Assembly: GCA_964036295.1 (NCBI GenBank)
Contig: OZ038466.1
Coordinates: 16,836,001 to 16,900,000, forward strand
Direction of reading: 5' to 3'
Length of the DNA stretch: 64,000 nucleotides
From: Plumapathes pennacea
Lineage: Eukaryota; Cnidaria; Anthozoa; Antipatharia; Myriopathidae
Both the position numbers and the translations under genes were made by a program. Positions 19,901 to 22,900 of the stretch are shown piece after piece. The notes below the pieces were generated by a model, which saw nothing but the letters and a program-made list of their open reading frames with translations, did not search any database and was not told where the DNA came from. Every line of letters starts with the position of its first letter. Positions within the stretch are counted from its first letter, which is position 1.

Positions 19901-22900
19901 TATTAGGGAGTCTGGGTTATCGTTCACTTTGATATACATGTCTCATGCAAGGAAATACTGACATTAACTGATAACATAAATAATAACACGAATATTGACT
20001 TTGACTTTACACGCTATATTAGACACAAATTTTTACATTTTTTTTTTCTTAGACACAAAACCTTGCATGTTATATTTTTCTCCCCAGGTGGAAGGAAGTG
20101 GTGGATTCTGCTACCGGAGGAGGAGTCGTTCAACTGCAGACTCTCGTGGAACAAATGCCGAATGTGGCCAAGGTGGGGGCAGACTTTTTACAACTTAATA
20201 TCACAGATATAAATCGCCGTCACCAGCAGCGTCGTCGTCGTCGTCGACATGATCATGATCATGATCATGATCATCATGATCATCATGATCATCATGATCA
20301 TCATGATCATCATGATCATCATGATCATCATGATCATGATCATCATGATCATCATCATGATCATCATGATCATCATCATCATCATCATCATCATCATCAT
20401 CATCATCATCATCATCATCATCATCATCATCATCATCATCATCATCATCATCATCATCATCATCATCATCATCATCATCATCATCATCATCATCATCATC
20501 ATCATCATCATCATCATCATCATCATCATCATCATCATTATCATCATCATCATCACCATCATCATCACCATCATCATCATCATCATCATCATCATCATTA
20601 TCATCATCATCATCATCATCATCATCATCATCATCATCATCATCATCATCATCATCATCATCATCATCATCATCATCATCATCATCATCATCATCATCAT
20701 CATCATCATCATTATCATCATCATCATCACCATCATCATCATCATCATCATCACCATCATCATCATCATCATCATCATCATCATCATCACCATCATAATC
20801 ATCATCATCATCATCACCATCATCATCATCATCATCATCATCATTATCATCATCATCATCACCATCATCATCATCATCATCATCACCATCATCATCATCA
20901 TCATCATCATCATCATCATCATCACCATCATAATCATCATCATCATCATCACCATCATCATCATCATCATCATCATCATCATCATCATCATCATCATCAT
21001 CATGACTTCTATCATTGTCATTATTATTACTCTAATGGCCAAGCTCTGCGAGGGTACGAAGGTACGAATGTCGAATTTCTAGTTTATATAATTAAAGCTC
21101 ATGGAAGAGTGGTCAATTCAATTTTTTTGATTCGGCTAATGTTGTATTTTTTCCCACAGCGTTTACTTGATCAGTGTGTGAAGAAAGAGGGCGATCCTTT
21201 TTAGCAATGACTTCAAAGTATGTTGTGATTGCGTTCCAGGTTTTGACTCTGCAAGCCAGTGTCCAATAACATAGTCCGGTCTACATATACTACTGCCTGA
21301 AAATCATTTCAGATCTACTATAATATTGTAACTCTTCGTTTTGTGCATCCTCTATGTTTGCTGAATCACTTTATATCCGACAGATCACGTACGACTTGCA
21401 ACTTATTCAAGGAAAACAAGGCTCCATGGGTGCCCAGACATTTGGAAATTCTCTGAATGCCTTGAAGGTATGACCAAAGACTGCAAACGCCACAATGTTC
21501 TTGTGAGGCCGTTTCCAAATTAGGGCACACGTATCACATTCTTATCTATTACACATTCTTATCTTTTTGAGAACTGGGCCCAGTTGTTCAAAGCACGGTT
21601 GGGTTAACCCTCGGTTAAGTCTAAACTTTGTTGCCATTTTGTATTTGAAATTGAAAAACGTTCGCAATCAAAACAACTTTCTCACCGAGTTCTAAGCTGG
21701 AAACCTTTTGGTAAGTCTCTGATCAAAACTCTGCAGTTTGTTGACCAAAATTGGTTAACCGTGGGTTAGCTTAACCAAGCCTCGAACAACCGGGGCCTTG
21801 GTATTCTGTCTATTCCCAATAGACCAATTTGACTCAACCTTGAAAACTTTCTAACTTTTGAATTGTCAAATTAAACCTAAGGTGAGTTCTTGGCAATGAG
21901 CACTTTCTGACAGCAGTGTCCAGGTTTTTGTCAAAAGGGTTTTGTGTCATTTTTGTGAAAGGGCGATGTATTGTTGTGGTTTCCCTGACTAGTATTGCTG
22001 GCATTTTGCAGACGATGGCAGAGCGTCGAAGAGAGATCTGTCTCACTCACCCCGTGTGCTACGTCTTGATGAATATGAAGTGGTGAGTTGAGCACGTGCT
22101 TTCAGAAAGGGACAAAACCAGCCAGCTAAATAGGGCGCTTTTGTTTAGTAGTAACTTACTTGTGCATACAATTGTTTTCACCCGAAAGCCAAAGCGTAGG
22201 TATCATAGCAATTGGTAAAAGGAACCCACCCCCAAAGTTTTTGGAGTTTGATTGACGTGCAAGCAGAAACTGTAATTTGATTGGGTAATGTTCACGTACA
22301 AGCGGTATGGAAGCTTTTTTTTTTTGGCTGAGTTTCAAGTATGTAACGTGAGATTTTTGTTGACATGTAGTCGCGCCCTTGCGGTTTTGCTCAATTATAT
22401 TCACTTTCGCATCTTCTAGTTGTGTACGGTATTTTTATTGCTTTAGTGAAACTAAGTGAAGCAAAAGAAACATAATCAAACGATAGAAACAGTTCGACAA
22501 GCTGAAGTCGCTCCCGGCTGTCACGGGTTTTTCAACTAACATACGCCTGTCAAACAACCGTCACGAATTTACCAAAACCTCGGTGGTGATAGCTCTAAAA
22601 TACAACAGACCGACTGGAAATTCTTAAAGCCTGATAGAAGAAATGCATTTTAGAAGAATAACAACAAAAAAGAAATGAAGTGCAGGCTGGATTAATCGTG
22701 GCCTGTGTCGACTAAATCGATTGTGCATGAATGTGAGATAAATCACGCATTGCTCTCTTCTTTGCAAGCCGACCCTTGGCTTTCACTGCCAAGCTCAAGG
22801 TTCTCTCAACCTTTTGAAGTAAGTGTATGAGTGTTGTAATAATAGTGTATAGGTTTCAAATCAGGTTTCATTTGAGCAAGGTGTCAAAGGCCAAGTTCCC

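Follow-up and report, generated by a model that had tools for sequence, protein, structure and literature searches.

A one-base frame break in exon 16 of one clustered TRPA gene copy of Plumapathes pennacea, and its proposed reading as a young null

There is a single extra base in exon 16 of one TRPA-family gene of Plumapathes pennacea that breaks the reading frame ahead of the channel domain. This copy, gene 1, is probably a young null allele that still segregates or else a newly dead duplicate, wherein the break would be real and very young. The window analysed is a stretch of 64,000 nucleotides (C5:16836001-16900000) of an assembly comprising 290,015,204 bases in 24 contigs. Gene 1 has 28 exons located at 7883-33289 on the + strand, and all 27 of its introns are GT-AG. 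Its features, and those of the paralog gene 2 that begins in the same window, are as follows.

7883..20172, + strand: exons 1-15 of TRPA gene 1, the ankyrin part, belonging to the 616-residue portion with Pfam ankyrin repeats
7883-7984, 9399-9483, 10297-10472, 11574-11681, 12556-12664, + strand: gene 1 exons 1-5
12907-13004, 13398-13445, 15364-15549, 16200-16388, 16876-16962, + strand: gene 1 exons 6-10
17166-17251, 17766-17927, 18670-18784, 19715-19884, 20088-20172, + strand: gene 1 exons 11-15
20248..21003: CAT/ATC array of 756 bases in intron 15, with 156 bases between its end and exon 16
21160..21217, + strand: gene 1 exon 16, 58 bases (57 in genes 2, 4, 5 and 6), with a phase-0 start, as for exon 17
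21198..21202, + strand: T5 run in gene 1 exon 16, the place of the one-base length difference
21202..21204, + strand: in-frame TAG, where the gene 1 reading stops after 616 residues, ahead of Ion_trans
21384..33289, + strand: exons 17-28 of TRPA gene 1, encoding linker, channel domain and C-terminus, open one base off frame
21384-21467, 22012-22082, 23995-24130, 25138-25206, 25572-25738, 26868-26928, + strand: gene 1 exons 17-22
29343-29411, 30515-30685, 31313-31381, 31854-31964, 32149-32264, 33112-33289, + strand: gene 1 exons 23-28
44595..57751, + strand: gene 2, intact paralog, exons 1-17 within the window (exons 18-28 lie past the window end, L033)
57191..57247, + strand: gene 2 exon 16, 57 bases

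The assignment of gene 1 to the TRPA family is based on both of its halves. The 616 residues read from the start codon carry the many N-terminal ankyrin repeats that are characteristic of this family (Ank_2, E = 1.3e-88, plus four other Pfam ankyrin models). The Ion_trans domain (PF00520, E = 8e-13) is found in the DNA of exons 17-28, which encodes a C part of 433 residues, and not in the protein read from the gene 1 start codon. TRPA1 chains account for all of the nine best PDB matches of this C part (E = 5.5e-50 to 1.8e-41), and the tenth is TRPV4 (E = 2.2e-14). A single continuous frame running through the ankyrin and channel parts is absent from gene 1, where it is ended by the TAG at 21202, and is present in gene 2. 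The exon at 30515-30685 encodes the pore motif LGELNY, which also appears in genes 3 and 6; the corresponding motif is LGELDY in gene 2 and LGDINY in the human channel.

Several repeats were seen in and around these genes. Intron 13 of gene 1 contains a GGTTAG-like array (19261-19317) that resembles telomere repeats, and intron 20 contains four copies of a 47-base tandem unit (25314-25506) with 97% matches. There are also three related elements of 300 bases, at 5422-5715, 55375-55687 and 61867-62170, which are 88-89% alike, with one of them inverted. These look like short hairpin transposons.

A search of the assembly with the C part of gene 1 located TRPA exons in at least six groups (genes 1 to 6) along C5:16.86-17.08 Mb. 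The cluster spans C5:16.84-17.09 Mb, and weaker TRPA-like matches with long open frames, such as L014 and L019, occur on C1. Gene 2 is complete, with 28 exons, a coding sequence of 3174 nucleotides and a single terminal stop; an additional in-frame ATG is located at 44574. There is no exon 18 of gene 2 in the last 6 kb of the window, but truncation was rejected as an explanation because the exons continue beyond the window end. Gene 3, the sister copy and the one closest to gene 1, lies at a JC distance of 0.094 over 37 aligned intron pieces (9,848 bases). Its 21 readable exons (1-13 and 21-28) are open and have canonical splice sites. Gene 3 exons 14-20, which appeared to be lost, fall within a stretch of exactly 5,000 N (C5:16933597-16938596, L036), either a gap in the assembly or sequence that was withheld. 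The analysis covered exons 16-19 of genes 4 and 5, and exons 14-28 of gene 6. In gene 6, exon 20 (C5:17079528-17079596, L015) is followed by CT rather than GT at its donor (CAG|CTTTTTC), and a GT is found eleven bases on (CGACAG|GTAAAT); gene 6 may be another damaged copy, or its splice site may have shifted.

Exon 16 of gene 1 is flanked by the acceptor tttttcccacag and the donor gtatgt. The original prediction had described this exon as 58 bases long against 57 in the paralog, with the T5 run creating a TAG that ends the protein after 616 residues and before all six membrane segments, and this is borne out by the sequence and its frames, in which the stop precedes Ion_trans. We compared the exons of gene 1 with 72 exons from five paralogs (28, 21, 15, 4 and 4 exons), among which 12 differ in length from their gene 1 counterparts. 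For eight of the 12 the difference is a multiple of three. The four out-of-frame cases all involve exon 16 of gene 1; in each of the four other readable copies (genes 2, 4, 5 and 6), exon 16 measures 57 bases. Because only the comparisons with this one exon are off frame, the change is in gene 1, and the length difference is not a chance pattern. Gene 1 carries the kind of disabling change that defines a pseudogene or null allele, namely a one-base frame break relative to its 57-base homologs. As counted along the alignment, the break falls at about human TRPA1 residues 650-651. This position is ten residues past the Cys of LLDFC641 and lies in the linker ahead of the channel domain. Cys641 of human TRPA1 is an irritant-sensing residue.

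The remainder of the gene is open. Exons 17-28 of gene 1 amount to 1302 nucleotides with canonical splicing and no stop before the final codon, and their frame is the one that would be fed by a 57-base exon 16. The downstream exons had been described beforehand as open and correctly phased, which is the case, although there are twelve of them (17-28) rather than eleven. No second lesion was found across the 28 exons of gene 1. The exact exon 16 place of gene 1 occurs once in the assembly, in a search that scored 40 of 900 candidates. Such a search would pick up a second haplotype if it were nearly identical but would miss distant copies, and exon 16 of genes 2, 4 and 5 is not among its matches.

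The number of lesions is informative about the age of the break. The introns of genes 1 and 3 differ by 134 indels and 870 substitutions, a ratio of 0.154. If gene 1 had been unconstrained since the split (d about 0.027), then about 16 lesions would be expected. Only one is observed, and thus the break came late. The 95% bound on the time since a real break is d < 0.0051 when the whole of gene 1 is used and d < 0.0117 when only exons 17-28 are used; an earlier estimate for exons 17-28 with assumed ratios had given d of 0.011-0.019. The suggestion that the break is very recent is supported by the lack of a second lesion in gene 1: a real break would be no older than about 0.005 neutral substitutions per site. 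We take this age to be of the order of within-species variation.

Constraint on the gene 1 branch was examined in several codon-model tests, which leave out gene conversion and whose p-values are uncorrected. With genes 3 and 2 as references (786 codons), omega is 1.23 on the gene 1 branch versus 0.40 for the rest (p = 0.0017). When a clock sets the gene 1 and gene 3 lengths equal, the values are 0.74 and 0.42 (p = 0.0087). An omega of 1 on the gene 1 branch is compatible with the data both without the clock (p = 0.58) and with it (p = 0.14). No rise is seen when the gene 3 branch is made the foreground (p = 0.62). Most of the signal lies in exons 2-13 (p = 0.0015; p = 0.031 under a clock). 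Exons 21-28 by themselves show no significant rise, whether three genes are used (p = 0.26), gene 6 is included (p = 0.0855) or a clock is imposed (p = 0.14), and a comparison of exons 17-28 of gene 1 with genes 6 and 2 gives none (omega 0.47 versus 0.41, p = 0.67). Similarly, pairwise omega between genes 1 and 2 is alike on both sides of the lesion (0.357 upstream and 0.374 downstream), and the ratio of synonymous to nonsynonymous changes on the gene 1 branch does not differ between the upstream and downstream parts (p = 0.58). Polarised replacements number 47 in gene 1 versus 32 in gene 3 (p = 0.11), and polarised silent changes number 17 versus 29 (p = 0.10).

There is thus moderate support for the view that gene 1 was a copy already losing constraint, although adaptive change could likewise raise its omega. 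Given the bound on its age, the break would have come after the relaxation of gene 1, if that relaxation is real. The earlier description of the downstream exons as conserved was too strong, given that constraint on this branch looks relaxed, but the relaxation resides mainly in the upstream exons and is not significant in the downstream exons taken alone. The apparent relaxation makes true decay of a duplicate somewhat more likely.

If gene 1 is a young null, the proposed course of events is ordinary. A TRPA-family sensory cation channel gene within a tandem cluster would have had the T run in its exon 16 lengthened by one base. This would shift the frame in the linker that joins the ankyrin repeats to the channel domain, so that translation would end at residue 616 without producing a channel. 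The stop is situated 13 bases ahead of one exon junction, with eleven further junctions beyond it, and because it lies upstream of so many junctions the gene 1 mRNA is a predicted target of nonsense-mediated decay. Three points are inferred: the animal carries the extra base, the gene 1 transcript undergoes decay, and the loss is tolerated by virtue of the neighbouring copies.

The main rival of the young-null reading is an error of assembly or consensus, such that the true length of exon 16 is 57 bases and gene 1 remains intact as a channel gene. We regard this as a possibility to be taken seriously, though a doubtful one. The difference consists of one homopolymer base and is the sole lesion in a gene of 28 exons, and no other kind of assembly slip is as common as an extra T in a homopolymer. 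Moreover, mapping or polishing could be poorer near the 756-base CAT array that lies 156 bases upstream. As a small and local control, 113 other runs of at least four bases (28 of them of at least five) in 100 TRPA exons with 11,101 coding bases are free of any frame break, but an error rate of about 1% for each run would also fit this count, so the control is not decisive. The fact that the 756-base array was resolved suggests that long reads were used, and together with the high contiguity of the assembly (290 Mb in 24 contigs) it speaks for such reads and not for their accuracy. Since a slip in base calling would leave omega in other exons unchanged, the rise on the gene 1 branch is not explained by an error. 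The original prediction had put forward a very recent mutation, a polymorphic null allele or a homopolymer error. These are still the leading readings, with error, polymorphism and fixed change each a candidate on sequence alone.

It is improbable that gene 1 still makes a channel, whether by in-frame skipping of exon 16 (a loss of 19 codons) or by a +1 ribosome slip at CCU UUU UAG C. Exons 17-28 are without lesion, and joining exon 15 to exon 17 preserves the frame because each of exons 16 and 17 begins in phase 0. However, skipping would drop LLDQC, a conserved stretch whose human counterpart in the alignment is LLDFC641. No other splice site within exon 16 preserves the frame at a credible score. 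The frame-keeping alternative donor at 21178 scores -5.67, whereas the minimum among 44 accepted donors is 5.18. An acceptor formed from the T run and ending at 21204 is passable, with a score of 2.02 (accepted acceptors range from 1.66 to 14.5, n = 43), but it was rejected because the 13-base exon that would result remains out of frame. Use of this acceptor with the weak donor at 21174 (1.82) was also rejected, as it would need a 31-base intron, which is too short for an animal. As for slippage, the gene 1 sequence CC TTT TAG C does provide a slip site whose A-site codon is read slowly, and at the UUU of CC UUU UAG C the Phe tRNA could pair again one base further along. A P-site UUU with a slowly read A-site stop is a recognised +1 slippage setting in the available portions of three papers (PMC3498833, PMC5009743, PMC10235951), of which two describe slippage on UUU and at UAA/UAG stops (PMC3498833, PMC10235951) and one discusses compensated indels, most known ones being mitochondrial (PMC5009743). 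However, the slip site is absent from exon 16 in all four readable copies (genes 2, 4, 5 and 6), with no sign of conservation, and there is no RNA structure after the stop, where the 40-80 nucleotide fold is weaker than those of shuffled sequences (z of +0.7 to +1.7). A downstream stimulatory structure is not needed in every known case of +1 frameshifting. It would nevertheless be very surprising if the T5/TAG functioned as a shifty stop in the nuclear gene of an animal, wherein mainly an ankyrin-only protein is made and a minority +1 slip on UUU_UAG_C yields a little full-length channel in an amount set by termination efficiency. Equally hard to credit is a locus with two products, these being the 616-residue ankyrin-only protein and a channel-only protein that would begin at an internal start. 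Each half is open and matches its own domains, but a long 5′ truncation of TRPA is unsupported by the copies here, with gene 2 being a single 28-exon gene, and decay of the long message is predicted.

If the young-null reading of gene 1 is correct, then a tandem sensory-channel copy has been caught at the moment of its loss, with constraint apparently relaxed, one disabling base and the rest intact. At such a clean site one could ask whether the population is polymorphic for the null and whether the null goes with a difference in sensing. If the extra base is an assembly slip, gene prediction would wrongly split or truncate gene 1. Literature on TRPA1 in connection with pseudogenes, frameshifts or premature stops yielded a mouse knockout study alone, and the accessible portions of the literature on TRPA in corals and other cnidarians, including PMC4878875 and PMC12314368, name no such allele; neither result is proof of absence in print. 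The exon 16 DNA pattern had no matches in a set of viral contigs (viral_contigs), and the pore-exon peptide had 141 pattern matches with none confirmed in genome_contigs; both collections are without animal genomes and are uninformative on orthologs.

Compared with compensated ‘problem’ and ‘savior’ indels and with +1 shifty-stop frameshifting, as presented in the available portions of PMC5009743, PMC10235951 and PMC3498833, gene 1 differs in having no stimulatory structure and no conservation in the four readable copies. Gene 1 resembles TRPA1 channels (human 6v9v, 6pqq and 9m8n among others, and the TRPA member 7ykr) in its ankyrin N-terminal part and its Ion_trans C-terminal part. The linker Cys of human LLDFC641 is retained as LLDQC, and the pore motif is LGELNY instead of LGDINY. 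In contrast to TRPA1, the gene 1 reading stops at about human residues 650-651, leaving the channel half untranslated in frame. Young pseudogenes and segregating null alleles occur among tandem duplicates of sensory genes. Gene 1 is like them in its one lesion and its otherwise intact exons and neighbours, and its constraint looks relaxed as well, mainly in the upstream exons.
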